This document shows positions 42,426-62,790 of a DNA stretch of 64,000 nucleotides, piece after piece. The stretch is from Bacteroidota bacterium. GTDB lineage: Bacteria > Bacteroidota > Bacteroidia > Cytophagales > Cyclobacteriaceae. Location of the stretch: positions 62,001 through 126,000 of the forward strand of contig JAFEAM010000012.1 in NCBI GenBank assembly GCA_018266395.1, read 5' to 3'. The translations under genes and the position numbers were made by a program. Within the stretch, counting starts at the first letter, position 1. Every line of letters starts with the position of its first letter. The notes under the pieces were generated by a model. It was given only the letters and a program-made list of their open reading frames with translations. It did not search any database and was not told where the DNA came from.

Positions 42426-44855
42426 ATGATCAAGAATTACTTTACCGTTGCCCTCAGGATTTTAGTGAGACAAAAGGGCTATTCCGTAATCAACCTCTTT
42501 GGCCTTACACTCGGCATCAGCTGCAGCTTACTCATCTTATTGTACATAGCGGATGAATTGAGTTATGACCGTTTTCATCCTGATGCTGCCCGCATCTACA
42601 GGTCCAGTTTTCACGGAAGGATTCAGGACCGCGACTTTGACGCTGCAGATACCGGTGTGCCCATGGCAGAGGCACTGCAGCGAGAAGTACCTGCTGTGGA
42701 AAGTACCCTCAGACTAACCAAGTGGGGCACACAACCGGTACGCTTTGAAGAGAAATCCTTTACTGAAAAACATTTTTTGCTGGCTGACTCCAATTTTTTC
42801 GAATTCTTTTCTTTCAGGCTTATCATCGGCAATGCCAATCAGGTACTAAAGGGACCGAACAAACTGGTGATTACCGAAAGGGCGGCGAAGAAGTACTTCG
42901 GATATAAAGGGCAAGGCGATTTGACCCCTATCGGTAAAATGCTTGTTCTGGGTAGCCGCGGGGAAATGACAGTAGAAATTACCGGGATTGCCGCAGATCC
43001 TCCTCATAACAGTCAGATTCAGTTCGACATGATCCTTTCGCTTGCCTCCTGGGACGTGATCAAACAGGCTATTTGGCTGAATTCATCTGTACAGACTTAC
43101 TTCAAGTTGAGGCCTGGCGCATCGATCGAATCCGTTCAAAATCAATATCCCAAATTCATCGAAAAGTACTGCGCGCCTGAAATCCAGCAATTTCTTAACA
43201 TTTCGCTGAATGACTTCCAACAACAAGGCGGCAGAATAAGATTTGACAGTATGCCCCTCACTGACATTCACCTGCATTCAAAATTGATGGGTGAAATAGA
43301 GCCTGTTGGAAGCATTCAATATATCTATCTGTTCTCTGCCATTGCCATCCTGATCATTCTCCTGGCCTGCATCAATTTTATGAATCTCAGCACGGCCAGG
43401 TCAGCCAATCGCGCAAAGGAAGTCGGTATCAGAAAGGCAATTGGTGCTTTGCGAGGGTGGCTGGTACGGCAGTTCATGATGGAATCATTCTTGTATACTG
43501 TTTTGGCTGTTTCTTTTGCCCTTTTACTGGTCATGCTCGTTCTCACTCCGTTCAATGAACTCACAGGCAAAGAACTCACCGCATCAATGCTTTCCAGACC
43601 CTGGTTTATTTCAGCATTGATTGGATTTACTATTATGGTAGGGCTTGTTGCAGGAAGCTATCCAGCCTTTTATCTGACGTCTTTCAGGCCTGCCGAAGTA
43701 CTTAAAGGAAAGATGAGAGCGGGTCTCAGAAGCTCAGGCATCCGGAATACCCTGGTGGTATTTCAGTTTTTTATTTCCATTGGGCTGATCATCTCCACCC
43801 TGATGGTTTACCGTCAATTGAAATTTGTACAGGAAAAAAATCTCGGCTTTGAAAAGGAGCATGTAATGAACCTGCTCCACACCATGCGTCTTGACAAAAG
43901 CGGAAAGGCGTTCAAAAATGAACTTCTGACCCATCCTGAAATCATAAGTGCAACCTACTCCAATCGCCTCCCGCCCAACATAGACTGGAATTCAACATTT
44001 ACAGTGCCCGAGACCAATCAGCCCCATCTCTTATCCATTTACATCATGGATGAAGATCACCTGAAGACCATGGGATTTCAAATGATAAAAGGACGGTTCT
44101 TCTCAGCCGATCATCCATCCGACTCCAATGCCTACATCGTAAACGAAACCGCTGCCCGTCAAATGGGGTATGATACCTATGAGGGAAAAAAATTAAACTC
44201 CCTGTTCAACAGTTCAACGCCGGTAACAATTGAGTGCATCGGTATTATTAAGGATTTCAATTTTGCTGATCTGCATAGCCCCATTGGACCATTGATCATA
44301 CTCCCGGGAAAGCAACCCAATTGGGAAATGGCTATTCGACTCACACCCGGAGACGAAGCCAAAAAGCTCAAGCTTGTTGAGAGCGTTTGGAAAAAGTATG
44401 CTCCCGATGCTCCATTTGAGTACAGTTTTCTTGACGACAACTATAATGCACGGTTCCATGCAGAGCAACAAATGGGTCAAATCTTCATTGTATTTACTTC
44501 TCTTGCCATCGCAATTGCATGCCTCGGCCTATTTGGTCTCGCAACATTTACTGCTGAGCAACGTGCTAAAGAAATCGGTATCCGGAAAGTCATGGGCGCT
44601 GATGTACCTCAAATTGTCACCTTGTTGTCAAAGGACTTTGCAATATTGATTTCGATTTCGCTCATCCTGGCTGTGCCTGTAACCTGGTATGGCATGGAAA
44701 AATGGCTGCAGGGTTATGCCTACCGTGTGAGTTTCGATGTATCTATCGTACTGGTCGCAGGAGGAATTGCCTTGTTGATTGCAATGCTCACTATAAGCTA
44801 TCAATCCCTGCGTGCGGCGCTCTCCAATCCGGTGCAATCATTGAAAAGTGAGTAA
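42426..44855 (+). CDS. MacB-like FtsX-domain permease (no prefix domain)
   Basis: An 809 aa permease of the MacB/LolE class: an N-terminal helix (VINLFGLTLGISCSLLILLYIADEL), a large periplasmic MacB_PCD domain (about 45-280), three helices with an FtsX core (LACINFMNLSTARSANRAKEVGIRKAIGALRGWL), a second periplasmic domain (about 440-640) and a second FtsX core (TAEQRAKEIGIRKVMGADVPQIVTLLSKDF). Such double-FtsX permeases work with a separate ATPase in mechanotransmission or export of peptides and antibiotics. No ATPase gene is adjacent. The gene is divergent from marR and convergent with the HhH protein gene. Confidence 0.9.
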   Translation: MIKNYFTVALRILVRQKGYSVINLFGLTLGISCSLLILLYIADELSYDRFHPDAARIYRSSFHGRIQDRDFDAADTGVPMAEALQREVPAVESTLRLTKWGTQPVRFEEKSFTEKHFLLADSNFFEFFSFRLIIGNANQVLKGPNKLVITERAAKKYFGYKGQGDLTPIGKMLVLGSRGEMTVEITGIAADPPHNSQIQFDMILSLASWDVIKQAIWLNSSVQTYFKLRPGASIESVQNQYPKFIEKYCAPEIQQFLNISLNDFQQQGGRIRFDSMPLTDIHLHSKLMGEIEPVGSIQYIYLFSAIAILIILLACINFMNLSTARSANRAKEVGIRKAIGALRGWLVRQFMMESFLYTVLAVSFALLLVMLVLTPFNELTGKELTASMLSRPWFISALIGFTIMVGLVAGSYPAFYLTSFRPAEVLKGKMRAGLRSSGIRNTLVVFQFFISIGLIISTLMVYRQLKFVQEKNLGFEKEHVMNLLHTMRLDKSGKAFKNELLTHPEIISATYSNRLPPNIDWNSTFTVPETNQPHLLSIYIMDEDHLKTMGFQMIKGRFFSADHPSDSNAYIVNETAARQMGYDTYEGKKLNSLFNSSTPVTIECIGIIKDFNFADLHSPIGPLIILPGKQPNWEMAIRLTPGDEAKKLKLVESVWKKYAPDAPFEYSFLDDNYNARFHAEQQMGQIFIVFTSLAIAIACLGLFGLATFTAEQRAKEIGIRKVMGADVPQIVTLLSKDFAILISISLILAVPVTWYGMEKWLQGYAYRVSFDVSIVLVAGGIALLIAMLTISYQSLRAALSNPVQSLKSE

Positions 44856-46160: not shown

Positions 46161-48860
46161 ATGGGACTTTCCGACGAACATGTTTGCTATATCATCAAAG
46201 ACCTTCACCAGCGGGGAATCGTCGCGGAGGATATCCAGGATGAAATCATAGATCACGTCTGCTCATCCGTCGAGGATGAAATGAGAGGCGGAAAGAAGTT
46301 TGCGGAAGCCTATCAACTCACCATCACCAGGTTTGGTCATAGTGAAGGGCTTCTGCGTGTACAAAAGGAAGTTGTTATAGCTGAAAATAGAAATGCCACG
46401 ATTATGCTGAAAAACTATTTGCTCATCGCCATTCGCAATCTCAGGAAGAATAGTTTCTACACAGGTATTAACATTGCCGGACTTGCTGTAGGCATTTCAA
46501 CCTGCATGGTCATTGTGCTCTATCTGTTGCACGAGCTAAGCTATGATCGCCATCATGCTGCAGCGGATCGGATTTACAGGGTTGATTGTGAAATTAAATT
46601 CGGACCCAATCATCTCAGATTGGCTGTGGCGCCAGGACCTATGGCTGAAGCCCTTCGAAATGATTATCCCGAAGTAGAAGCATCAGCGAGATTCTGGAAT
46701 GTGGGCTCCATGCTTTTTCGGCGCACTGACCAAAACTTCAAGGAACAGCATACTGCATTTGCCGACAGTTCCGTTTTCTCAGTTTTTACAATTCCGCTCA
46801 TTCAAGGCAATCCAAAATCAGCGCTTACTGAACCGTACACCATGGTCATAAGCGAAAGGACCGCTGAAAAGTATTTTCCCGGTGAGAACCCAGTTGGTCA
46901 AACGCTGATCGTAGAGAACAAGGATAACTACAAGATTACCGGCGTATATGAGGACATGCCTCTCACAAGTCATTTTCAGCTGGACCTTATGCTTTCTCTG
47001 GTTAGTAATGATTATAACAAAGATCCAAACTGGCTGAGCAACAATTTCAGTACGTACGTTAAGTTAAGAAAGGGTGCCGATGTCAAAGGACTGGGTGAAA
47101 AGATGCCGCAGATGGTGGAAAAATATGCCGGACCGCAGGCAAGGCTTGCACTCGGCAAAGACTTCACCATGGAAAAGTTCAAGGCGGCTGGCAACAAATT
47201 GGAATGGACGTTCCGGCCATTAACCGACATTCATCTTCATTCAGATCTTACGGCGGAACTGGGCACAAACAGTGACATTGTTTACATCTACCTGCTCTCT
47301 GCCATCGCGCTGTTTATCCTGGGAATTGCCTGTATCAACTTCATGAACATGAGTACTGCCCGTTCTGCCAATCGTGCAAAAGAAGTTGGTGTAAGAAAAG
47401 TAATGGGCTCTTTGCGAGGACATCTGATACGACAGTTTCTTACAGAGTCTATCTTGCTGACAGCCGCGTCTTTTGTTCTTGCCCTTCTCCTGGCATGGAT
47501 TGAACTTCCGTATTTCAATGGCCTCGCTCAGATGGAACTGTCTCTTCCTTTTGGTGACAGGAACTTCTGGTTGCTTGTGTTGGCCGGGATCGTTTTGATT
47601 GGCATGCTGGCCGGTCTATACCCTTCCTTTTTCCTGTCAGCATTCAAACCTGTAAATGTATTGAAGGGCCATGTTTCTCTTGGCATGAGAAGCGGCCTGG
47701 TAAGGAGTGCCCTCGTAGTATTTCAATTTTCAATTTCCATTTTTCTCATCATCGCCACGCTTGCGGTGAACAGTCAACTCAACTTCATTCAGAATAAGAA
47801 ACTGGGATTCACGAAAGATCAGATCATCATAATAAAGGATGCGTACGCATTGGAGAACCAGATCCAGGGTTTCAAGGAAGAGGTTCTCAAAGACAATAAA
47901 GTGATCAGCGGTACCATATCAGGATTCTTGCCAGTAACCGGTACCAATCGTAACGACAATACTTACTGGCCGGAGGGAATGCAGCCCACACAGGAAAATA
48001 TGGTGAGCTTGCAATGCTGGCGCGTCGATCTCGATTATGTAAAGACCCTGGGAATGAAGATCAAGGAAGGGCGGGATTTCTCATTGGAGTTCCCTTCGGA
48101 TTCAGGTGCAGTTATCCTTAATGAATCTGCTGCTCGACTTTTTGGCTATGCTGATGCGCCTCTCGGCCGAAAGATCAGCACCTTTGGCCGCGACACAACA
48201 CCTTTGCAGGACCAGGCTGAACGAACCTATGAAAACTATCCCATCATCGGCATTGTCGAAGACTTTCACTTTGAGTCACTGAAACAAAATATTACTCCGG
48301 TGGCGCTTTTCCTGCGCAAGAGTACAGGATTGGTGTCATTCAGATTCGCCGCAACTCATGCCAATGACGTTATTCAGAGTATTGAAAGTGTCTGGGAAAA
48401 AATGGCACCCAATATGCCTTTCAGCTATTCATTCCTTGATGAGGATTTTGCTAAAATGTACGAGGCCGAGCAGCGCTTAGGTCGGGTCTTTGTAATCTTC
48501 GCCGGGCTTGCTATTATAATCGCTTGCCTGGGCTTGTTTGCATTGACAGCATTTACCGCCGAGCAACGAACCAAAGAGATAGGAATTCGAAAAGTGCTGG
48601 GAGCTACCATCTCCAACATTGTGTTTCTTCTTTCAAAAGAATTCGGAAAGCTTATCCTCATTGCATTTGTTATCGCTTCTCCTGCCGCAGGGTACGGCGT
48701 AAAATGGTGGTTGACGGGTTATACTTACAAAGTAGAGTTAGGGCCAGGTCTTTACCTTATTGCCGGAGGAATTGCAATCGTGATTGCATGGCTTACAATG
48801 GGATTTCAGTCCATTAAAGCGGCCTCCTCTGATCCGGTCAGGTCGCTTCGCAGCGAATAA
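46161..48860 (+). CDS. MacB-like FtsX-domain permease with N-terminal prefix domain
   Basis: An 899 aa double-FtsX permease. Residues 1 to about 75 (LSDEHVCYIIKDLHQRGIVAEDIQDEIIDHVCSS...) form a soluble helical 'permease prefix' domain absent from the 42426 paralogue. Then the usual order follows: NIAGLAVGISTCMVIVLYLLHEL, MacB_PCD periplasmic domain, FtsX core (FMNMSTARSANRAKEVGVRKVMGSLRGHL), second periplasmic domain, second FtsX core (TAEQRTKEIGIRKVLGATISNIVFLLSKEF). The prefix may bind PadR or the ATPase. Coupled to padR; its stop abuts that of the convergent M20 gene. Confidence 0.92.
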   Translation: MGLSDEHVCYIIKDLHQRGIVAEDIQDEIIDHVCSSVEDEMRGGKKFAEAYQLTITRFGHSEGLLRVQKEVVIAENRNATIMLKNYLLIAIRNLRKNSFYTGINIAGLAVGISTCMVIVLYLLHELSYDRHHAAADRIYRVDCEIKFGPNHLRLAVAPGPMAEALRNDYPEVEASARFWNVGSMLFRRTDQNFKEQHTAFADSSVFSVFTIPLIQGNPKSALTEPYTMVISERTAEKYFPGENPVGQTLIVENKDNYKITGVYEDMPLTSHFQLDLMLSLVSNDYNKDPNWLSNNFSTYVKLRKGADVKGLGEKMPQMVEKYAGPQARLALGKDFTMEKFKAAGNKLEWTFRPLTDIHLHSDLTAELGTNSDIVYIYLLSAIALFILGIACINFMNMSTARSANRAKEVGVRKVMGSLRGHLIRQFLTESILLTAASFVLALLLAWIELPYFNGLAQMELSLPFGDRNFWLLVLAGIVLIGMLAGLYPSFFLSAFKPVNVLKGHVSLGMRSGLVRSALVVFQFSISIFLIIATLAVNSQLNFIQNKKLGFTKDQIIIIKDAYALENQIQGFKEEVLKDNKVISGTISGFLPVTGTNRNDNTYWPEGMQPTQENMVSLQCWRVDLDYVKTLGMKIKEGRDFSLEFPSDSGAVILNESAARLFGYADAPLGRKISTFGRDTTPLQDQAERTYENYPIIGIVEDFHFESLKQNITPVALFLRKSTGLVSFRFAATHANDVIQSIESVWEKMAPNMPFSYSFLDEDFAKMYEAEQRLGRVFVIFAGLAIIIACLGLFALTAFTAEQRTKEIGIRKVLGATISNIVFLLSKEFGKLILIAFVIASPAAGYGVKWWLTGYTYKVELGPGLYLIAGGIAIVIAWLTMGFQSIKAASSDPVRSLRSE

Positions 48861-51737: not shown

Positions 51738-52481
51738 TCAGAAGATTCTAAAGTTAACAATCATGTCGCCCTGCTTCTCGGTGATTTTGCCATTCTGGGA
51801 ATGTCCGCTGATGTATGCAGAAGAAGTCGCCGGAATTCTCCAGACTTGCTCAATGCCCTGGTAGTACATGTCCTGAAGTGAAAGTGATGATCGAATGATA
51901 ACGGTCACACGCTTATATCTGACCCCAATTTCATACCGGAAGAAAAATGACTGTGGCACGGCCAATTTGGTCACGTCGCGACTGTCCTCATAGTGCGTAG
52001 TTGGCGGAGCGGCGAGCGCTGAAAATCCAACATGGTCTGAAGTTTCGGAAATCTTTGCCTCCATCAGCCAGTTGGAAACGACACCCATTCCCAGAAAGAG
52101 ATGGAAGTCCTCCACTAATGGAGAGGGCTGCCAGTTGAGCCTGAGAACGAATGGGACCTGAATGTATGTCTGTGAAATATTGGTTGTTCGCGCATCATAA
52201 TAGAGCCCCGAAATGGTAAAAGAAGAACTCAGATTGTATCCATTTGCCAGGTACGCCGCTCCGGTAGCTGCTGCCAAATGAAACCGACTAATTCTTTTTG
52301 GTTTGAGTCTTCCTTCCAGATCGATTCCATAAATAGGATAAGTTCCTCCGTTTTTCAATTCACTTCCCAGATTCAAAGATGTGGACGAAGCTCCCGCATA
52401 AGCATCCAGATGGATCTGAGCATGCGTCTGATTGACACAAGTCAGAATGAGAAGACACCATATGGTTAATCCGTATCTCAT
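51738..52481 (-). CDS. Outer-membrane beta-barrel protein of the CHAT operon (second)
   Basis: About 247 aa from the start at 52481 (MRYGLTIWCLLILTCVNQTHAQ), which opens the signal peptide and overlaps the CHAT gene stop by four bases (ATGA); nine more upstream codons are unlikely. The mature part has alternating barrel-type strands (FHLAAATGAAYLANG, YIQVPFVLRLNWQPS, FHLFLGMGVVSNWLM, FFFRYEIGVRYKRVTVIIRSSLSLQ) and ends in MIVNFRIF with a terminal Phe, the usual Bam signal. It is like PorT/outer-membrane barrel proteins of Bacteroidota. Function unknown; encoded with the exported CHAT protein, so it may be its membrane partner. Confidence 0.7.
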   Translation of the reverse strand: MRYGLTIWCLLILTCVNQTHAQIHLDAYAGASSTSLNLGSELKNGGTYPIYGIDLEGRLKPKRISRFHLAAATGAAYLANGYNLSSSFTISGLYYDARTTNISQTYIQVPFVLRLNWQPSPLVEDFHLFLGMGVVSNWLMEAKISETSDHVGFSALAAPPTTHYEDSRDVTKLAVPQSFFFRYEIGVRYKRVTVIIRSSLSLQDMYYQGIEQVWRIPATSSAYISGHSQNGKITEKQGDMIVNFRIF

Positions 52482-55018
52482 TTGCCGAGCATCACAAAGG
52501 CACCCCAATAGAAAGGCTGTGGATATTTCTTTCGAAGTGCACGCTGTGCTTCTCTGAACTCCCTCGTATTATCCGTTCCCGTCCATGATTTGTAGAATGT
52601 CGTCATCAGGTCGGCAGTCGCTGCATCATCCACCTTCCAGAGAGACATAATCAGGTTTTGAGCGCCGGCAACTACAATTGCACGCTGCAAACCATAAACG
52701 CCTTCACCGTTTCTGACCTCCCCCAAACCAGTCTGACAGGCCGACAAGACAACAAGTTGAGTTCCTTCCAGATCCAGATTGGTTGCCTCATACGCTGTCA
52801 GGATCCCATCCTCCTGTTCTGTAGCATGCCCAGAATTCCTAACGCCAGCCAGCACGATGCCTGAGCGAATCATCGGGTTCACGGCGCTTGCCGCATCATC
52901 CACGAAAAATCCATGCGTGGCGATATGCAGAACAGATGGATGGTGGACCGCCTTCACATTTTCCTCAAGCGCTGTCTCTCCCTTATATGCTTTTACCGTA
53001 AGGGCATGCTGTTCAAGAATAGGCTCAATGACCTTGATTTCCGTTTCAGTACCAGGAAGGTCTTCAAATTCCTGCTCCTTGAAAGACTGGAGTTCCTCCG
53101 ATATCACATTTCGCTGTCCATAGACCGCATTACTTGCCCCTGACATAGCGGACTCTTCAAAATCATATGAAGGCCGGCCGATGAGTACCGCCAATTTCTC
53201 AGGACTTACTTCGGCCTTCTTCTTGAGCAGGTCACTTGAATTCGTCAGATACACAAGGTCTGTTTCATCAATGAGATAATTCTTTGTTGCTGGATTCTGC
53301 AGTGTATTCAGGTTGATCTGGTTGTACACTCCATCAGGCGAGATATAGAGCTTGTTGATTCCCGTTAATTCTCTTCTTATCGGTTGCCAGAATTGGTCAT
53401 AGGAATTGCTGTCTTCCAGCCTGGACATTATCGCATTTCGGTAATAGGCCAGGTATCTTTTCTCAAGTTGATTTCCATTGGCTACCATAAATAACTGAGG
53501 TGAAGCAGAAGATTCTCTCAGCAAAAGAACCGCATATACAACACTGTCACCCACCATGCCAGCCCGTGACTTATCTGCCAGTCGCACACGAATCAATTCG
53601 ACTGATGCTTCCTTCTGTTGGAGATTTGCTTTTACATCTTTCCAGCTCAGCGCATTCAGGCTGCCGGAAAATAATCCAGATGCGGCATTCAGTTTCTTTT
53701 CTAGGTCATCAATTGTCTTCTCAAGTTCATCAATCTTGCGTGGATCGGTTTCTTCATAATAGGATGCTGAAAGTGCTGCTTTGCTGTATTCCCATTTCTT
53801 GAGCATGTCAATCAATTCGGGATTACCACTTTCAAGGATATTGTTTTTTTGACGATTTGATTCATTGAGCAACAATGCCTTTGTATTAAGCGCATTATCA
53901 TACATGTTTTCGGCCAGCATCACGGCCGATGCTGAATTTTGCTGGTCCAGAACGAAGGCATTAAAAAGATCAAAGTCCTTCTTCAGTGATGCATAAAACT
54001 GCTCCTTTTCATAATCACTCATTGCCACGAAATTCTGAGCTATATACTCACGATAAGCTTGCACCAGTCCGGAGAAAGCTTTGGCTGCTTCATCTGAATG
54101 ACCTTGATACCATTCAAGCATTCCTCGTGTTTTCAACAGCTTGAATTTTACATCAGAAACGCTTTTTGCGGGCTGATAATAATCCGCCCTGTCCAGATAA
54201 TCGCGGGCCTTATCGTAATCTTTCAGCATCAGGTAATAGCGGGCCTTCATCTCAAGCACCCTGGCCGTTTCCGATCTGGCAATGGTTTTTGTGGTAAACT
54301 TTCTTGTTCCGCTGCTGGCCAGTGCCAGTTTATTGATGTAGTAGTCGGCCTCGTCCATTTTACTCAGCGTAAGACATATCTCGGCAAGATCATTCAGGTA
54401 AAGCCGGTTTAATATGTCATAGTCGTAAGCCGAAGACATCGAACGGTTGATTTCCCTTTCTGCTTCATTAAACTGCTGATAAGTTTGTTCGATCAACCCT
54501 CGTCTGTAACTAAGTGAGCCCATGCCTATGAGTGGATGCACGCGATGAATGCTCCTCTTGCCGACGAGCGCATCCCTCAGCGCTTTTGACTCTGTGAAAT
54601 ATTGCTCGGCTGTTCTGAGGTTGCCGATCTTCAGGTAATAGTAACCCAGACGGTCAATAGGATCGAAGATGGTAAGCTGAAAATTAAGGAACATCGGCAG
54701 CTTGAACCGGCCGTTGCGTTTGACTGGCATGTTCTTTTTTGCAACCTGATAGGCTTCGGCGTAGCTGTGTTCTGCCTTGGAAAAGTCGTTGGTCCTCAGG
54801 TATTGATCCCCCAGCAGCGTTTGGTAAAGAATATATTCCTTTGGTTTGGATTTACTCTGTGCCAAGGCGCTTAGCTGTTCAATGCTCGCTTTTACTTTAT
54901 CCGGGTCTTTACTGTTATACAGCGAATTCAGTATTCTTTGTTTTCCTTTCTGAGCCAGTATGGGCTCATGTATTGCCAGCATGAGAAGCGCTAACCAGAT
55001 CGTGGCAATTCTCTTCAT
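52478..55018 (-). CDS. Exported TPR-CHAT caspase-like protein
   Basis: An 846 aa protein. A signal peptide (MKRIATIWLALLMLAIHEPILAQ) leads to TPR/helical repeats at about 40-400 (YLRTNDFSKAEHSYAEAYQVAKK, YYLKIGNLRTAEQYFTESKAL, YYLMLKDYDKARDYLDRADYY), a coiled-coil linker (about 410-455) and a C-terminal CHAT domain (about 560-846). CHAT is a caspase/separase-related Cys protease fold; both catalytic residues are present, His near 702 in LHIATHGFF and Cys near 761 in VVLSACQTGLGE, with GVYGLQRAIVVAGAQNLIMSLWKVDD after them. The signal peptide puts it in the periplasm or outside. It is coupled to barrel genes on both sides. Confidence 0.9.
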   Translation of the reverse strand: MKRIATIWLALLMLAIHEPILAQKGKQRILNSLYNSKDPDKVKASIEQLSALAQSKSKPKEYILYQTLLGDQYLRTNDFSKAEHSYAEAYQVAKKNMPVKRNGRFKLPMFLNFQLTIFDPIDRLGYYYLKIGNLRTAEQYFTESKALRDALVGKRSIHRVHPLIGMGSLSYRRGLIEQTYQQFNEAEREINRSMSSAYDYDILNRLYLNDLAEICLTLSKMDEADYYINKLALASSGTRKFTTKTIARSETARVLEMKARYYLMLKDYDKARDYLDRADYYQPAKSVSDVKFKLLKTRGMLEWYQGHSDEAAKAFSGLVQAYREYIAQNFVAMSDYEKEQFYASLKKDFDLFNAFVLDQQNSASAVMLAENMYDNALNTKALLLNESNRQKNNILESGNPELIDMLKKWEYSKAALSASYYEETDPRKIDELEKTIDDLEKKLNAASGLFSGSLNALSWKDVKANLQQKEASVELIRVRLADKSRAGMVGDSVVYAVLLLRESSASPQLFMVANGNQLEKRYLAYYRNAIMSRLEDSNSYDQFWQPIRRELTGINKLYISPDGVYNQINLNTLQNPATKNYLIDETDLVYLTNSSDLLKKKAEVSPEKLAVLIGRPSYDFEESAMSGASNAVYGQRNVISEELQSFKEQEFEDLPGTETEIKVIEPILEQHALTVKAYKGETALEENVKAVHHPSVLHIATHGFFVDDAASAVNPMIRSGIVLAGVRNSGHATEQEDGILTAYEATNLDLEGTQLVVLSACQTGLGEVRNGEGVYGLQRAIVVAGAQNLIMSLWKVDDAATADLMTTFYKSWTGTDNTREFREAQRALRKKYPQPFYWGAFVMLGK

Positions 55019-56218: not shown

Positions 56219-58246
56219 TCAGTTTGGCAGTTTCTCAGCCTGAAAATCGCCCCTAAGGGTCCGGTATCTCTTCCTCGCTTCCGCAGCATAGACGCTGCCG
56301 GGATATTTATCAAGAAAATTTCTGTAGATCTCCATCGCCTTCTCCTTGTCTTTCAGCTGCCTTTCGTAAATCTCGCCTTCTGTGAAATATGCATCATCAG
56401 CGTAAATGTCATCGCCGTATTCCAGGACAATTTTTTCAAGCAACTCCAATGCTTTGGGAAATTCGCCCCGCTTGAGCCTCACACCTGCTTCTAACCAATA
56501 GAGATCATCCAGAATTGCACGGTTAGGATATTGCAAAGCCTCCTCGTTTGTTCCCACCAGCCTGAAGCCCCGGGCAAGCAAATCCATTCGCCGAAGTGCC
56601 TCGTCATCTTTATTCTGGACAAGCAGCAATTCAATGGATGCAAATTCATGCAAGGATTCGGCGGTAGAGTCAAATGCTGTATTCTCCTTAATACGCATGC
56701 TCAGGTCCATGGCATCGTTCGCAATTTCCCGGCTGGTCGCCTGCTTGAGAATGTCAAGATGTTCCTGCGCCAGCCTGAAGTCGCCCTTGTAATAGGACAA
56801 CTTCGCATTACGCAGTTTAGCTTCATATCCCAATGGCGCATCGCGTTGGTTTTTTTCAACCTGGGAGTATAGCAAGGTAGCTTCCCATGGCTCTTCCTTA
56901 AGAATGTAGATATCGCCCAATTCAAGTTTTGCCTTCGCTTTCAGATATGGTGCCACACGTGGATGATTGGACAATGCCGTTAGTTTTAGAATGGCCGAGT
57001 CCTTCTCATCAAGATAGTAAGCATGCAGCATGCCTTCCGACAAAATAGCCTCATAACTGTTTGCATTATCAGGATAGCGTGCAATGAAGGAAAGATATTC
57101 TCTTGTGAGGTAACGAACAGAATCTCTGTTCACCGGAAATCGCGTCTTAACCTTGGCCTCTCTTGCTTTGATCAGCCCCAGTCTTGCAGGCAGGTAATTG
57201 TCTGTATTCGGAAATTCCCTGACAACATAGGAGAAACTGCGATCCGCATTTTCATAGTCTTTATTGTTGAGCGCGATCTGCGCGATTTCAAGTGTCTTCG
57301 AATTTTCCTTCCTGAACCTTTTGTCATAAGCACGAGCCTGAATGTAAGCTCCATAAAAATTCTTTTGCTGTAGATTTACCCAGATGAGCAGATCGGCATA
57401 GACTTCAGATTCAGGATTCTTCTGAACTCTTTCCACCAGCATGTGTTCAAGGCTTTCGAGCTCATCGGGCTTATTGAGGAAAAGCTGAAGAAGGTTTTTT
57501 ACGTAATTGAGATTGGTTGGAGATTGTGTTATGTAGCGGAGATATTCTTCCACCATTTCGTCTCTCTTTCCCTGCATGCGGTAAAGGTTTGCCATCTCCA
57601 GGGTAAAAATTGTAGGATTGTTAAGAGACTGCCTCAGCTCCTGCAGTGCCCAAATCGCATAATCAGGAAGATTATGTGCCGCAAGGTAATCTGATATGGA
57701 CTTGGTACGGTAAACATCCTGAATGTTACTCTTCACGAGTGCCTTAAAATATTTGTCAGCTTTACTTGTTTCTCCGGATCTCACATAAACAATCCCGAGA
57801 TCAACCCTGTAGGTTATTCTGTCATCAACCTTTCTGATGACTTTCTCTACATAATCTTCCGCCTCCTTGTACTTACCCATGTCCAGGAGGAGCGATAGAT
57901 AGTTCGTGTGAATGGCAGGAATATTTTCGGCGTTTCGCGACAGTACCTGATACATTGCCAGCGCCTTTTCCTTTTCGCCTTTCAAGAAGTATTCATTTGC
58001 AATCCGGACATCCATCTCCTGGGCTAACGAGAGGGTTGGGACAGACAGTAAACAGGCTATTAGTATTCTATTAAATGATATATATATGTAATTGGTATAA
58101 TTATCGATGTTGAATTGTACATACTGGGAAGGCTGAGTTTTTGGTGGATGATTTGTGAGTGTCTCGTTTGGGTGGGAACTGGTATTATGATGAGAAAGAC
58201 CGCATGCAGGTGAAATATCCACAATGTGCATAACGTGTGCTTTCAT
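56219..58246 (-). CDS. Exported tetratricopeptide-repeat protein (start uncertain)
   Basis: Up to 675 aa. The convincing protein begins at a signal-like segment, FNRILIACLLSVPTLSLAQ, at about 58015-58080, and continues as TPR-like helical pairs (NEYFLKGEKEKALAMYQVLSRN ... YADDAYFTEGEIYERQLKDKEKAMEIYRNFLDKYPGS). The frame stays open to 58246 but no ATG, GTG or TTG lies near the signal segment; the first in-frame ATGs would add over 55 residues that look non-coding and lie over origin-like sequence. Removing one AT unit of an (AT)5 run at 58078-58087 would bring an ATG at 58120-58122 into frame. Function unknown; the repeats suggest a periplasmic protein-protein scaffold. Confidence 0.75.
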   Translation of the reverse strand: MKAHVMHIVDISPACGLSHHNTSSHPNETLTNHPPKTQPSQYVQFNIDNYTNYIYISFNRILIACLLSVPTLSLAQEMDVRIANEYFLKGEKEKALAMYQVLSRNAENIPAIHTNYLSLLLDMGKYKEAEDYVEKVIRKVDDRITYRVDLGIVYVRSGETSKADKYFKALVKSNIQDVYRTKSISDYLAAHNLPDYAIWALQELRQSLNNPTIFTLEMANLYRMQGKRDEMVEEYLRYITQSPTNLNYVKNLLQLFLNKPDELESLEHMLVERVQKNPESEVYADLLIWVNLQQKNFYGAYIQARAYDKRFRKENSKTLEIAQIALNNKDYENADRSFSYVVREFPNTDNYLPARLGLIKAREAKVKTRFPVNRDSVRYLTREYLSFIARYPDNANSYEAILSEGMLHAYYLDEKDSAILKLTALSNHPRVAPYLKAKAKLELGDIYILKEEPWEATLLYSQVEKNQRDAPLGYEAKLRNAKLSYYKGDFRLAQEHLDILKQATSREIANDAMDLSMRIKENTAFDSTAESLHEFASIELLLVQNKDDEALRRMDLLARGFRLVGTNEEALQYPNRAILDDLYWLEAGVRLKRGEFPKALELLEKIVLEYGDDIYADDAYFTEGEIYERQLKDKEKAMEIYRNFLDKYPGSVYAAEARKRYRTLRGDFQAEKLPN

Positions 58247-58360
58247 GATTGTGTTGTACTTGGTTGTTGAATAGTCGTGGAGAACTTGTTGCGGGATTGG
58301 GTTTTCTGTGCTTTATGCTAAGCTATGGGTTTGCATTAGCATTTATTCACGGTTTGTTAA
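58050..58360. other. Candidate replication origin (oriC)
   Basis: Three things coincide here. (1) An AT-rich stretch at about 58060-58115, containing (AT)5, could be an unwinding element. (2) DnaA-box-like 9-mers: TGTGCATAA at 58225-58233 is a perfect TTATNCACA on the minus strand, ATATCCACA at 58215-58223 and TTATTCACG at 58343-58351 each match 8 of 9. (3) The + strand changes from slight C excess on the left to about twice as many G as C on the right (hand counts), although genes on both sides are minus-strand. It overlaps the doubtful 5' end of the TPR frame and the 121-base gap upstream. Two parS sites lie 4.4 kb away. dnaA is not nearby, which is common in Bacteroidota. Confidence 0.5.
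58225..58233 (-). promoter_or_regulatory. DnaA box
   Basis: TTATGCACA on the minus strand matches the TTATNCACA consensus at all positions. The near match ATATCCACA lies one base away at 58215-58223 in opposite orientation. Confidence 0.5.
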
Positions 58361-58367
58361 CAAGTTA

Positions 58368-59984
58368 TCAGAATTTGAGGATGAGAGGGCCAAGTTCCCA
58401 GTTTGCGCGGATTGGAAAACTGCGCTTCTTTTCATTAGTGAGGTAGTAGATAACGGGTTCAGGTTCTATTGCCAGGATTGGATTGCCCGCATCCCATCGT
58501 TGGTTTCCGTTGGCATCGATAATGATTCTTATTGCATAATCTCCGGGTGGAATTTGTTTGATCGTCTGTTTGACAAGGTTAGGGTAGCTATGCAAAATAT
58601 GGCCTTCTGGTGAGAGTAGCTGTACTATGTAATTCTTGTGTGTGGTCTCTGTTTGCAGCAGGAGTATACCGGTAGTTTCTGGCCATGGTATGGTTGGCTG
58701 ATCCTTCAGTGCTTTTGTGGAATCGTTATCAATGCTGACGAGGAAGCCTTTTCCGATTGTAATATTAAGGAGAGGATCGGCATTGCCTTCGAAGATTTTT
58801 TTGTCCATTTGATAGTGAATATTGATTTTCTTCAGCTTGGTGTTGATGTTGAATTGTTCTTTTGGGATGTGAAATATGGCAGTTGTATCCAGCAATATGC
58901 TGATACTGTCATACTGAATTGATTTCAATGGTTTATTGAAGCGTATGTTCGTGGTGAAGAGCCCTGTCTCTGGATCGATGAGAAGCTTATCTGCAGCCCA
59001 TTTGAAGTTGTCTTTTACTGTTCTCGCATCAGTCTTTTTAACATAGAATGTGGTGTCGAGTTTGTTGTCCAGACTGTCAGTTGCGGAGAGTGTAATTTTG
59101 ACACTGTCAGTGAGAGATTGGGGGTTCCAGATTACAAGTTCATCGGGGGAGTCGGGTATGGTATGCTGCAGCGTTGGCTGGGATTGAATATTGTAGTCCA
59201 CAACAGCCTTGCTGAAACGGATCCTGGAAAGCGATCCTGCCCTTCTGATGGTGTTCAGCTTGAGTGGTCGGGTATCCAGGCTGATGAGTCCGAGGTGGAG
59301 TGAATCTATATTTTCGCTTAGGTGGAGGGTATCTTTTAGAAAGCCGAATTTTTCTGTACGGCTTTCTATTTTAAGGTTTTTGTTTTTGTCATCGAATGCA
59401 TAAATGTGGTAGTCACCTTCCTTCAGGTTATCGAGCCTGAATACACCGTGTTTGTCAGATTTGGTGAGGTAGGATGCTGGATGTTTAAATATATTGAAGG
59501 TGTCGGACTGATAGACTGCCACTGTGATTTTTTCGGCGTTTGAACCCTTGAGCAGATAGGTAACCCGACCGCTGATATGCAGGGTGTCGATTTCAGGGCC
59601 GGTACTGAATGCCAGCCGCAGATCGGCGGGTACGTTGCCTTCTGTAATATCCTGGATGGCTTCACGAAATACAATATTGTATGTGGTGGAATCAGCCCAT
59701 CCATTTTTTGGTGTGATAAGTACTCTATTTCCCTTTAGCGTTACATCTATTTCCTTTCCTACAGAAGGGCTGATGATCATTTCCTCTTTCGGATTTTTCA
59801 GTTTGAGATCCTCATCGAATGTGAGTTGTATTGTCTTGCCGCGGAAGCCGGTTGTATTGTGCTGAGGTAATGAGGATAAAAGTTTGGGCGGAATTTTGTC
59901 TTTCGGTCCGCCATTTGGGGAACTAATACTGGCGCATCCGGCTAGAATGAAAACAATCGGAATAAGTGATTGGATTCGATTCAT
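58368..59984 (-). CDS. Ig-like domain lipoprotein
   Basis: A 538 aa lipoprotein: signal with lipobox LAGC (Cys 17), then CASISSPNGGPKDKIPPKLLSS, the start typical of the Bacteroidota 'Ig-like domain-containing protein' with an SbsA-type Ig domain (about 30-130; TIQLTFDEDLKLKNPKEEMIISP). A carboxypeptidase-regulatory-like beta-sandwich follows (about 135-230; GVFRLDNLKEGDYHIYAFDDKNKNLKI), then further beta domains and a closing PGDYAIRIIIDANGNQRWDAGN. It is probably surface- or periplasm-facing. It overlaps the methyltransferase gene by four bases (ATGA). Its coding strand is unusually C-rich and G-poor, as expected for a lagging-strand gene beside an origin. Confidence 0.85.
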   Translation of the reverse strand: MNRIQSLIPIVFILAGCASISSPNGGPKDKIPPKLLSSLPQHNTTGFRGKTIQLTFDEDLKLKNPKEEMIISPSVGKEIDVTLKGNRVLITPKNGWADSTTYNIVFREAIQDITEGNVPADLRLAFSTGPEIDTLHISGRVTYLLKGSNAEKITVAVYQSDTFNIFKHPASYLTKSDKHGVFRLDNLKEGDYHIYAFDDKNKNLKIESRTEKFGFLKDTLHLSENIDSLHLGLISLDTRPLKLNTIRRAGSLSRIRFSKAVVDYNIQSQPTLQHTIPDSPDELVIWNPQSLTDSVKITLSATDSLDNKLDTTFYVKKTDARTVKDNFKWAADKLLIDPETGLFTTNIRFNKPLKSIQYDSISILLDTTAIFHIPKEQFNINTKLKKINIHYQMDKKIFEGNADPLLNITIGKGFLVSIDNDSTKALKDQPTIPWPETTGILLLQTETTHKNYIVQLLSPEGHILHSYPNLVKQTIKQIPPGDYAIRIIIDANGNQRWDAGNPILAIEPEPVIYYLTNEKKRSFPIRANWELGPLILKF

Positions 59985-60856
59985 TTTTGGAGAACGTAGA
60001 TAAGACTGGAATAATTTTGGTTTCGGCGTGCGGAGAAGTTGGAGCGCAGTCCAACCGTAATGGCGTTGAGTATGCCAGCGGCGGTATGTTTGCCGCGTCT
60101 GTATTTTTCACTGAGCATTGAAACGTAATAGGCGTCCAGTTTCATTGGATATATAGCCTTAATCTGGAAGCCATGCTTTGCTGCCAATTTGGTCATGGTC
60201 ATTTTTGAGAAGTGCCAAAGGTGTCGTGGCACATCAAAGGCTGCCCAGTCTTGGTGGTAATATTGTGCATCAAGGGATTCGTGATTAGGTACTGCTATAA
60301 AAATAGTGCCATTGTCTTCCAGGTGGGTTTTGAGAAAGGTCATGGTTGCCGGGAGATCATGAAGGTGTTCCAGGACGTGCCATAATGTTATGATATGAAA
60401 AGAGCGCGATGACAATGATTGCAGGTTTGGTAGTACATCCAGCCTTTCCCGTTGACAAAGTGACCTGGCATTGTCAGAAGGTTCGACGCCAACAGCATGA
60501 AACCTTTTGCTTGAATATTTGAGGAAGGATCCTGTTCCGCATCCTATGTCAAGGAGGTTGGAACCAGTTGCATATTGAGAGACGAGTTTGAACTTTGAAC
60601 GGATAGCGAAATATCTGATAATCAGATAGATAAGATCAAAGATTCCTTTTGCGTGCGCGGCATGTGAGATATAACCAGGCGTTTGATAGTAACGGATCGA
60701 TTCTACTTCGGACGGTCTTGGGGATGTAAAGAGCAGATGGCAACCTGAACATTGTTTCACATGAAACGATTCTCCAGTTGCGGTAAAGTCTTTACAGGTG
60801 ATAAGAGATGTGTGTTCATTTGAACCACAGAGAGGACAAGGGGATATGGACATCAC
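59981..60856 (-). CDS. Class I SAM-dependent methyltransferase with zinc ribbon
   Basis: A 291 aa methyltransferase. An N-terminal zinc-ribbon-like motif (CPLCGSNEH ... [10 protein letters not shown]) is followed by a Rossmann methyltransferase fold: [28 protein letters not shown] (motif I and II), [20 protein letters not shown] (motif IV with the His-Val-Leu-Glu-His pattern) and [34 protein letters not shown]. This type often methylates sugars, quinones or surface polysaccharide. It overlaps mnmG by four bases and the lipoprotein by four, so all are one operon. The substrate is not predictable. Confidence 0.85.
60753..60768. other. Degenerate parS-like site
   Basis: TGTTTCACATGAAACG matches the parS-type 16-mer TGTTTCACGTGAAACA at 14 of 16 positions. 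It sits within the methyltransferase gene 2 kb from the two good sites. The CACATG core breaks the palindrome, so ParB affinity would be weaker, and chance cannot be excluded. Confidence 0.3.
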
Positions 60857-62718
60857 CGGCCAAGATATACGGTCAGGATTGAAACATCTGCCGGTGAAAC
60901 TCCGCTGATGCGAGACATCTGTCCTATTGTTGAGGGTCTGATTTTTTTGAGTTTTTCCCGGGCTTCAGCAGAAAGGGCTTTTACCCGATCGTAATCAAAA
61001 TCATCCTTGATTCGGAATTCTTCCAGGCCTTCAATTTTCTCTGCAAGTTTTTGTTCCCTGTCAATGTAAGGCTCATACTTTATGAGGATTTCTGCCTGTT
61101 CAGCAACTTCTCTCGGGACACTGCTTAGCAGTTGTGCAGCGGAATCACTCAGGGCTTTCAATTCTGCAAGGTTTATTTCTGGTCTGCGGAGCAGGGAAGC
61201 AACAGAAATTTTCTCTTTCACGGGTGATGAATCCATCTGAATAAGACGATCGTTGATGTCGTCAGGTGTGAGCTTCATGAGATCCAGGCTGTTAAGAAGA
61301 TTGCTCAGTTTGGATTTCTTTTCTCTTAGAAGGTTCAAACGATCCTCGCCAGCCAAACCCAGGAGATGACCCTTCTCTGTGAGCCTGAGGTCTGCGTTGT
61401 CCTGACGCAGTAGGATGCGGTATTCTGCACGGGAAGTGAACATTCTATAGGGTTCGGTGGTACCCTTGTTTACCAGGTCATCTATAAGTACGCCGATATA
61501 GGCCTCAGATCTTTTAAGAACGAATGGATTTTTCCCATGGACTTTATTGTTGGCGTTAATGCCCGCCATGAGTCCCTGGCAGGCGGCTTCCTCATACCCG
61601 GTAGTCCCATTGATTTGACCTGCGAAGTATAGATTTTGGATCAATTGTGTCTCCAGCGTAGTCTTCAGTTGTGTTGGGGGGAAATAGTCGTATTCAATTG
61701 CATAGCCAGGCCTGAACATCTTGGCGCGTTCAAAGCCTGGAATTTTGGTAAGGGCTGCATATTGGATGTCTTCGGGCAGAGAAGTTGAAAACCCATTCAC
61801 ATAGATTTCGACGGTGTTCCATCCTTCCGGTTCAACGAAGACCTGGTGCCTATCCCTTTCTGCGAAGCGGTTGATCTTGTCTTCAATTGAAGGACAGTAT
61901 CTCGGTCCCACTCCTTTGATCCTTCCCTGAAACATAGGGGACTTGTCGAAACCCTTTTCCAGGCTGCGGTGTACGGCTTCATTGGTATAGGTAATCCAAC
62001 AGCTGAGTTGCTTTTCGGGCGGGCTTGTAGACGGTAGAAAGGAGAATTTTGAGGGATCATCATCGCCCTTTTGCTCTTCCATTTTGGAGTAATCCAATGA
62101 TCTGCCGTCGAGGCGGGGTGGGGTACCTGTTTTCATCCTTCCGGATTCAAAACCCAGCGCCACCAGGTTTTCTGTCAGTCCTGTTGCAGCCTTTTCGGCA
62201 GTGCGGCCACCGCCGAAATTCTTTTCACCTATGTGAATCTTTCCGTTCAGAAAAGTCCCGTTGGTTAGTACCACGGACTTTGCTTTGATCTCGAGACCGA
62301 GCGCTGTTTGCACCCCAGTCACATGGTTGTCTTCAACTATAATGCCAGTGACCATTTCCTGCCAGAAATCGAGTCCTCGTGTTTGTTCGAGCATTTTCCT
62401 CCATTCTTCAGAGAAGCGCAGTCTGTCATTCTGTGTGCGGGGGCTCCACATGGCTGGCCCCTTTGAACGGTTTAGCATCCGGAATTGCAGCATTGACCGG
62501 TCCGACACCAGGCCTGAATAGCCGCCCAGAGCATCAATTTCACGAACGATCTGACCTTTGGCTACGCCACCCATGGCTGGATTGCAAGACATCTGACCTA
62601 TTGTGGTCATGTTCATCGTGACCAGCAGAACACGGGAACCCATATTGGCTGCCGCGGCTGCAGCCTCGCACCCGGCATGACCGGCACCCACTACAATGAC
62701 ATCGTATTCTGGAAACAT
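60853..62718 (-). CDS. mnmG: tRNA uridine-5-carboxymethylaminomethyl modification enzyme MnmG
   Basis: A 621 aa FAD protein that, with MnmE, modifies U34 in the wobble position of certain tRNAs. The FAD site is [21 protein letters not shown]; other signatures are [41 protein letters not shown] and the [23 protein letters not shown] stretch, with the C-terminal helical domain (about 540-620; [18 protein letters not shown]). Length and order are standard. In many bacteria mnmG lies close to oriC and parS, which agrees with the signals nearby. Confidence 0.97.
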
Positions 62719-62734
62719 GGCTTATGAAAACACA

Positions 62735-62750
62735 TGTTCCACGTGAAACA
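62735..62750 (+). other. parS-type ParB binding site 1
   Basis: TGTTCCACGTGAAACA fits the bacterial parS consensus TGTTNCACGTGAAACA at every position. It lies in the 60-base gap between mnmG and ybeY, 17 bases beyond the mnmG start codon. Confidence 0.85.
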
Positions 62751-62774: not shown

Positions 62775-62790
62775 TGTTTCACGTGGAACT
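62775..62790 (-). other. parS-type ParB binding site 2
   Basis: Read on the minus strand, AGTTCCACGTGAAACA differs from site 1 at a single position. The two sites point towards each other with a 24-base gap, and their shared 16 bases form a perfect inverted repeat (62736-62751 and 62774-62789). Site 2 includes the last codons and stop of ybeY, so its sequence is kept despite coding constraint. Confidence 0.85.

Follow-up and report, generated by a model that had tools for sequence, protein, structure and literature searches.

A probable chromosomal replication origin between a lipoprotein-like gene and a TPR gene in a Cyclobacteriaceae bacterium

The locus and its neighbours

The stretch of DNA analysed here (the window, 64,000 nucleotides of contig C3) contains a short gap on the minus strand between the stop codon of a lipoprotein-like gene and the gene for a TPR protein. 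The gap and the larger features around it are as follows.

56219 to 58246, minus strand: open reading frame of the TPR protein; the extension up to 58246 is not common to relatives
58060 to 58367, no strand: proposed oriC, the gap reaching from the lipoprotein gene to where the TPR gene encodes its signal peptide, with approximate outer limits; skew break here, box cluster kept in relatives
58368 to 59984, minus strand: Big_5/DUF2141 lipoprotein-like gene, a conserved neighbour of the proposed origin
60853 to 62718, minus strand: mnmG (gidA; TIGR00136, 844.6 bits)
62735 to 62750, no strand: parS, TGTTCCACGTGAAACA, the genome's sole exact match to TGTTYCACGTGRAACA
62775 to 62790, no strand: parS, TGTTTCACGTGGAACT, one mismatch, overlapping the last bases of the ybeY open reading frame

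The original prediction had placed a candidate oriC here partly on account of a nearby mnmG and parS, and both are indeed present. The two parS sites are the only ones in the genome with at most one mismatch and lie 4.4 kb from the candidate origin, and a parS with up to two mismatches occurs at the equivalent of position 62775 in 46 of 49 loci, this one included. In Escherichia coli, oriC adjoins gidA/mnmG; mnmG is close by here too, but it stands 2.5 kb off, behind the lipoprotein-like gene and a methyltransferase gene. ParB was not found in the genome in a search with PF02195, TIGR00180 and the ParB of a relative; it is present in 48 of 54 relatives, and three of the six without it are rated 97-99% complete.

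The dnaA gene is intact and is carried on another contig, C28, 1.3 kb from the contig end. C28 was considered as the site of the origin and rejected, as it has at most two boxes per 500 bp and only a slight skew dip in its first 4 kb, an exclusion that is partial in that the far side of dnaA falls outside the view of the assembly.

Strand composition, DnaA boxes and the AT tract

A sharp change in the composition of the plus strand had been reported from a count by hand, and the recount agrees to within one base: positions 57121-58020 hold 209 C and 184 G (208 and 184 by hand), and 58021-58740 hold 102 C and 202 G, as stated. None of the other positions in the window, out of 62,380 tested, shows as strong a contrast as 58020. 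The weakening of the G excess within and beyond mnmG, which had been given as a reason for caution, is likewise seen in the raw skew, and the raw cumulative skew of C3 alone is ambiguous, its two lowest points (about 118 and 134 kb along the contig) being of nearly equal depth. This ambiguity is resolved when fourfold-degenerate sites are split by gene strand. Over the 244 kb of C3 analysed in this way, the best single break in fourfold skew, from C towards G as predicted, falls between the two open reading frames, at 58246|58368 (delta log-likelihood 65.3; maximum 17.2 over 300 permutations), with breaks one to three genes leftward nearly matching it at 62.9-64.6. From C3:122001 on, minus-strand genes keep the G excess, with a plus-strand fourfold skew of 0.11 to 0.24 in ten of eleven 12-kb bins, the eleventh, with one gene, standing at -0.11; values for plus-strand genes on that side differ in sign (-0.13 to 0.25) but exceed those of plus-strand genes on the left (-0.03 to -0.20). 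Such a strand-separated test can place an origin within a draft contig when gene content blurs the raw skew.

The small features of the gap are listed below, with offsets counted from the lipoprotein stop codon.

58343 to 58351, plus strand: DnaA box 1, TTATTCACG, eight of nine, offset 17
58225 to 58233, minus strand: DnaA box 2, TTATGCACA, fits TTATNCACA, offset 135
58215 to 58223, plus strand: extra DnaA box-like ATATCCACA, eight of nine, facing box 2
58116 to 58124, minus strand: degenerate DnaA box 3, GTATGTACA, two mismatches, offset 244
58106 to 58108, minus strand: ATC, aligned with the ATG start of the TPR gene in relatives that include L098, L091, L074 and L090
58096 to 58104, minus strand: three DnaA-trio-like triplets, ATA-ATT-ATA, separated from box 3 by 11 nt
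58078 to 58087, no strand: (AT)5 tract, offset 281
57907 to 57915, minus strand: possible degenerate DnaA box 4, CCATTCACA, two mismatches, within the TPR gene, offset 453

The three boxes named in the original prediction are there: its perfect box is box 2, which is perfect for TTATNCACA though not for TTATCCACA, and its two boxes of eight of nine are box 1 and the box-like sequence facing box 2. Together they form a cluster that has no equal in 244 kb of C3, where nowhere else do three boxes differing from TTATNCACA at one position at most fall inside 140 bp, and genome-wide no three TTATNCACA fall within 600 bp of one another among the 100 listed of 123 matches. This genome's copy is partly degenerate, having a single exact box, and boxes 3 and 4 carry two mismatches each. 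A score of two mismatches is reached at 14 places in 57850-58370, so that box 3 rests on its position and not on its score.

Conservation of the boxes in related genomes had been proposed as a check, and boxes do recur there at fixed offsets to which those of this genome correspond. An exact box in the orientation of box 1 is found at offsets 15-17 in 9 of 46 close relatives and at 6-7 in 8 more; the equivalent of box 2 is exact and in the same orientation at offsets 131-137 in 9 of the 46; that of box 3 is exact at offsets 197-258 in 24 (20 of those at 242-258), and that of box 4 at 418-476 in 14. Across 50 relatives TTATNCACA is enriched 56-fold in the same gap, with 89 occurrences in 27.5 kb vs 56 in 970.7 kb of flanks. 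The 399 permuted motifs used as a control average 1.9 occurrences in the gaps, and their maximum of 29 belongs to TATCNACAT, which overlaps the box shifted by one base; the two commonest gap 9-mers in the table are ATATATATA (90) and TTATCCACA (53). An exact box within 600 bp is absent in 10 of the first 51 loci and in 2 of 4 further loci, and at one locus (L064, genome G055) there is neither a box nor a next long open reading frame.

The AT-rich patch also stands: its (AT)5 is the only one in 244 kb of C3, and GC content falls to 29% in a pair of overlapping windows of 100 bp (at 58041 and 58061), a value undercut by only eight of 24,390 windows. The median offset over all AT tracts of at least 8 nt, this one included, is 280, and the (AT)5 is probably the core of an unwinding element. 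The basal origin unwinding system (BUS) of bacterial oriC, as in Bacillus subtilis, is described as beginning with a DnaA box, followed over a spacer no longer than 16 bp (peak 10-13) by three or more DnaA-trios (PMC8287927). With a box of at most two mismatches, a spacer of 0-16 and at least three trios taken as the rule, the module of this genome conforms, though the box and the trios are each at the limit, having a box with two mismatches, a spacer of 11, a length shared by many relatives, and the minimum of three trios; in this much the box, the spacer and the trios at an AT-rich site resemble the published BUS (PMC8287927). Across relatives, and against mononucleotide shuffles, trio runs occur in 20 of 43 cases (shuffle mean 10.2, maximum 18) and CTA is counted 22 times (mean 5.9, maximum 13), which lends at most moderate support to reading ATA-ATT-ATA as DnaA-trios.

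An origin or a regulatory site

On the strength of its sequence anatomy, the skew break, positional conservation among relatives and the proximity of parS, the gap at about 58.06-58.37 kb, followed along the minus strand from the lipoprotein stop codon to the TPR gene, is very probably the chromosomal replication origin. DnaA would bind boxes 1 and 2 and, from box 3, would spread over the trio-like triplets into the AT tract; the tract would then melt, helicase loading would follow, and forks would depart in both directions. Because this genome has ATC in place of the usual start codon and only degenerate versions of boxes 3 and 4, its own origin would depend mainly on boxes 1 and 2 or else on weak ones.

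It has also to be considered that the conserved boxes might instead serve the TPR gene, as a promoter under DnaA control or as a site that titrates DnaA, the true origin lying within some tens of kb. The boxes do lie on either side of a gene start, a break as much as three genes leftward comes close to the best one in score, and the skew of relatives assembled as single contigs agrees with the locus in part. The sign change expected of an origin brackets the locus in G023 (sampled skew negative up to 2.49 Mb and positive from 2.65 Mb, the locus at 2.57 Mb) and in G030 (negative up to 1.68 Mb and positive from 1.82 Mb, the locus at 1.75 Mb), with samples some 50-95 kb on either side; but in the densely covered stretch of G023, with 33,033 bases left out, the raw cumulative skew is lowest at 2,545,373, some 29 kb away from the locus. 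G039 fits poorly, as the sign of its sampled skew switches between 3.50 and 3.62 Mb, roughly 50-170 kb off the locus at 3.67 Mb, and the sampled skew of G044, tried as a control, has no clean pattern. A regulatory site is nevertheless improbable, given that the best fourfold-skew break sits inside precisely this gap, that the AT tract holds its position beside box 3, and that over 51 loci (this one included, about 9 kb on each side) the boxes concentrate in the two 250-bp bins that follow the lipoprotein stop codon, with 56 and 36 boxes, other bins having at most five.

As an origin, the gap resembles the predicted oriC of another member of the Bacteroidetes, Prevotella intermedia OMA14, where several DnaA boxes sit at a point of skew reversal that is not next to dnaA, an arrangement said there to be common in the phylum (PMC4755523); the likeness concerns boxes, skew and the separation from dnaA. 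The finding would provide an origin position with box-level anatomy for a Cyclobacteriaceae-like group that is known mostly from metagenome bins. Such a position is of use for growth-rate estimates from read depth and for the design of oriC plasmids, of which that of C. hutchinsonii is the subject of Xu 2012, as referenced in PMC5891637.

The start of the TPR gene

The original prediction proposed that 58081-58246 is origin rather than coding, and this is supported, with a refinement. The frame up to 58246 is indeed not conserved; in relatives, however, the module of box, spacer and AT tract carries the start codon and the signal-peptide front of the TPR protein. Of 46 close relatives, 35 have the ATG of the TPR gene no more than 16 nt past a DnaA box (in shuffles 4.4 on average and 11 at most), and because this start codon comes just after box 3 the probable unwinding module doubles as coding sequence in them. 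In the present genome a signal-peptide-like stretch is seen by eye at about 58020-58075. It is very unlikely that the TPR protein truly begins with all of the 58081-58246 frame and that the origin-like features are coincidental. The frame is open with an ATG at 58246, and this genome has ATC at the usual start and no in-frame ATG, GTG or TTG from box 3 up to the mature protein; but a stop codon separates the gene from the equivalent of 58246 in 45 of 46 close relatives, the DNA motifs of the gap are conserved, and a genuine extension in one genome would leave the evidence for an origin standing. A sigma-70 promoter scan of 57900-58500 gave one match vs 1.7 in shuffles, and a search of 55-64 kb with Rfam gave none at the gathering score.

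DnaA occupancy and expression of the TPR gene would thus involve the same DNA in relatives, and mutual regulation is likely. A fuller scenario is put forward tentatively, and may well prove too strong: in this lineage the unwinding module would be protein-coding, translation of a secreted TPR protein would begin at a codon between the DnaA box and the trios, the trios and AT tract would encode an Asn/Tyr/Ile-rich signal-peptide front, and initiation and gene expression would regulate each other. No report of an origin overlapping a coding start was recognised in a literature search at the level of abstract openings, which is no proof of absence. In the BUS of B. subtilis the box is followed by spacer and trios, whereas here the stretch after the box carries a start codon in those 35 relatives and the module is translated, so that the coexistence of origin opening and gene expression on one stretch of DNA is directly testable.

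Position and composition of the candidate origin

The gap between a lipoprotein-like gene and a TPR gene is very probably oriC. It lies on contig C3 (363,395 bp), whose bases 62001-126000 form the window, in a draft genome of 4.43 Mb in 56 contigs, with a completeness rating of 97.6%.

56219-58246, minus strand: TPR gene
about 58.06-58.37 kb: candidate oriC
58078-58087: AT tract, (AT)5
58368-59984, minus strand: lipoprotein-like gene

The original prediction placed an origin here on the basis of a change in composition at 58020, the (AT)5 tract and three DnaA-like boxes. On recounting, its base counts were correct to within one base, the contrast at 58020 was the highest of 62,380 positions, and the tract and boxes were found where it had put them. 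Our scans used the usual consensus sequences for the DnaA box and parS. The box described as perfect fits TTATNCACA but not TTATCCACA, the latter also being the standard DnaA box in PMC8287927.

Up to the locus the raw skew of C3 (2001-246000) stays mostly negative; past it the sign is mixed, and the raw cumulative curve has a second, near-equal minimum 16 kb further on. The skew was also computed at fourfold-degenerate sites split by gene strand, which removes amino-acid effects, using 200 greedily called ORFs, some of them possibly spurious. The best break separated 58246 from 58368, with a delta log-likelihood of 65.3 that none of 300 within-strand permutations matched (maximum 17.2). On the + strand, plus and minus genes have skews of -0.165 and -0.001 to the left of this break, and of +0.009 and +0.160 to its right. 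Moving the break leftward by one to three genes gave scores of 62.9-64.6, and moving it rightward by one gene gave 58.8; fourfold skew by itself therefore locates the change to about 3 kb. The two genes immediately right of the origin (58368-60856) have extreme fourfold skews (coding strand -0.44 and -0.39), exceeding every other gene listed in 50-78 kb.

Whole chromosomes of four relatives were sampled as well. In G023, one contig of 4.26 Mb, the locus is at 2.57 Mb. Its 20-kb samples are negative at 0.64-2.49 Mb; from 2.65 Mb onwards, past the contig end and on to 0.43 Mb, they are positive, as are all four extra samples (0.02, 3.76, 4.10 and 4.24 Mb). Dense sampling, which skipped 33,033 bases, put the cumulative minimum 29 kb off the locus, on a flat floor. 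In G030 the skew is negative at 0-1.70 Mb and close to zero at the locus, which is at 1.75 Mb. Its samples at 1.82-4.37 Mb are positive save one (-0.0145), and those at 4.80 and 5.25 Mb return to negative values. The switch in G039 falls between 3.50 and 3.62 Mb, the locus being at 3.67 Mb, and the samples of G044 gave no clear pattern.

Conservation of DnaA boxes

The lipoprotein-like gene is present in 54 of 57 relatives (this genome not counted) and in 42 named loci, from Cyclobacteriaceae, Flammeovirgaceae, Chryseolinea and other Cytophagales or Bacteroidetes records. Boxes were counted in this genome and 50 loci, namely all 42 named and 8 of 20 further stretches; of the other 12, 8 correspond to named records and 4 (L053, L057, L058, L062) were counted separately. 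The conserved boxes that the original prediction had proposed seeking in related genomes are indeed concentrated past the lipoprotein stop: in the 50 relatives TTATNCACA occurs 89 times in the next 550 bases (27.5 kb) versus 56 in 970.7 kb of flanking sequence, and 399 permuted motifs in the same gaps gave a mean of 1.9 and a maximum of 29, although some loci are close kin and thus not independent. Of the 250-bp bins, the first two past the stop contain 56 and 36 boxes, and every other one at most 5. At least one exact box lies within 600 bp in 41 of 51 loci, this genome included, and in 2 of the 4 counted separately.

Positions were compared in 46 close relatives (42 named and 4 same-genus), four same-order loci being kept separate. 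These hold 75 exact boxes, spread over 37 loci.

Exact DnaA boxes in the 46 close relatives, by offset (distance past the lipoprotein stop, read on the minus strand), and this genome's own boxes, which agree with them in place and strand
Box 1: offset 6-17, opposite strand, 17 loci; own TTATTCACG, offset 17, 1 mismatch
Unnumbered: offset 75-77, 6 loci
Box 2: offset 131-137, 9 loci; own TTATGCACA, offset 135, 0 mismatches
Box 3: offset 197-258, 24 loci; own GTATGTACA, offset 244, 2 mismatches
Box 4: offset 418-476, within the TPR gene, 14 loci; own CCATTCACA, offset 453, 2 mismatches
Other offsets: 5 boxes

As two mismatches are reached at 14 places in 57850-58370, it is position that supports own boxes 3 and 4. 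AT tracts of at least 8 nt occur in 24 of the 46; the own tract lies at offset 281, the median of all such tracts (own included) being 280.

A predicted unwinding module at the TPR start codon

PMC8287927 requires a box no more than two mismatches off, followed by a spacer of 0-16 and three or more DnaA-trios whose middle base is A. Own box 3 lies only just inside this rule, being followed by an 11-nt spacer and three triplets. Among 43 close relatives whose box 3 has at most one mismatch, 20 carry at least three trios in place, against an average of 10.2 and never more than 18 in mononucleotide shuffles. CTA occurs there in 22, against a shuffle mean of 5.9 and maximum of 13. These counts lend moderate support to a predicted unwinding module.

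The original prediction also held that 58081-58246 of the TPR frame is origin rather than coding. This N-terminal stretch is not conserved: in 45 of the 46 close relatives (all but L054) a stop intervenes between the gene and the position corresponding to 58246. The frame is nevertheless open well upstream of box 3 in some (e.g. L080, L098, L074, L075), so that what is excluded is a start at 58246 only, not every upstream codon. An in-frame ATG lies at most 16 nt past box 3 in 35 of 46 (shuffles of that stretch: mean 4.4, maximum 11), possibly an underestimate, since the script that chose box 3 took a different box in some of the other 11 (e.g. L069, L086). The first start codon in those 35 is at +1, +7 or +14 nt past the box, two being TTG with ATG at +7; signal peptides downstream were judged by eye.

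This genome has ATC at 58106-58108, where relatives carry the ATG, and no ATG, GTG or TTG in the frame from there up to the mature protein; L075 and L100 likewise lack the usual start codon at that place. The ATC may be used as a start, the frame may begin higher up, or the base may be an assembly error. The locus is very probably a chromosomal origin of known kind, its variant part being a predicted unwinding module that overlaps a start codon; the literature searched yielded no description of such an overlap.

Partition genes and neighbours

An intact DnaA of 477 aa is encoded on contig C28, where its gene lies 1.3 kb short of the contig end; oriC is commonly distant from dnaA in Bacteroidetes, according to PMC4755523. 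The whole genome has just two parS sites with at most one mismatch. They are spaced by 40 bp between mnmG and ybeY, and the second overlaps the final bases of the ybeY ORF. When up to two mismatches are allowed, 46 of 49 loci, this genome among them, have a parS in the same position; the three that do not are same-order loci. ParB was not found in this genome despite the two sites, nor was DUF5683, whose gene follows parB in relative G005; the best ParA match was 28%, with no close parA. Their joint absence suggests that the draft assembly probably has a gap, the alternative being a parS pair without ParB. ParB is present in 48 of 54 relatives, but the other six likewise lack it, three of them rated 97-99% complete.

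A third, weaker parS-like site (60753-60768, 2 mismatches) also has equivalents in several relatives, where it precedes the lipoprotein start by about 0.8 kb. On the other side, counting leftward from the origin, the fourth ORF (52478-55018) encodes a TPR protein with a CHAT domain. Further out, two plus-strand genes (42426-44855 and 46161-48860) encode permeases whose best match, below cut-off in each case, is the ADOP family; smaller ORFs lie between the two.
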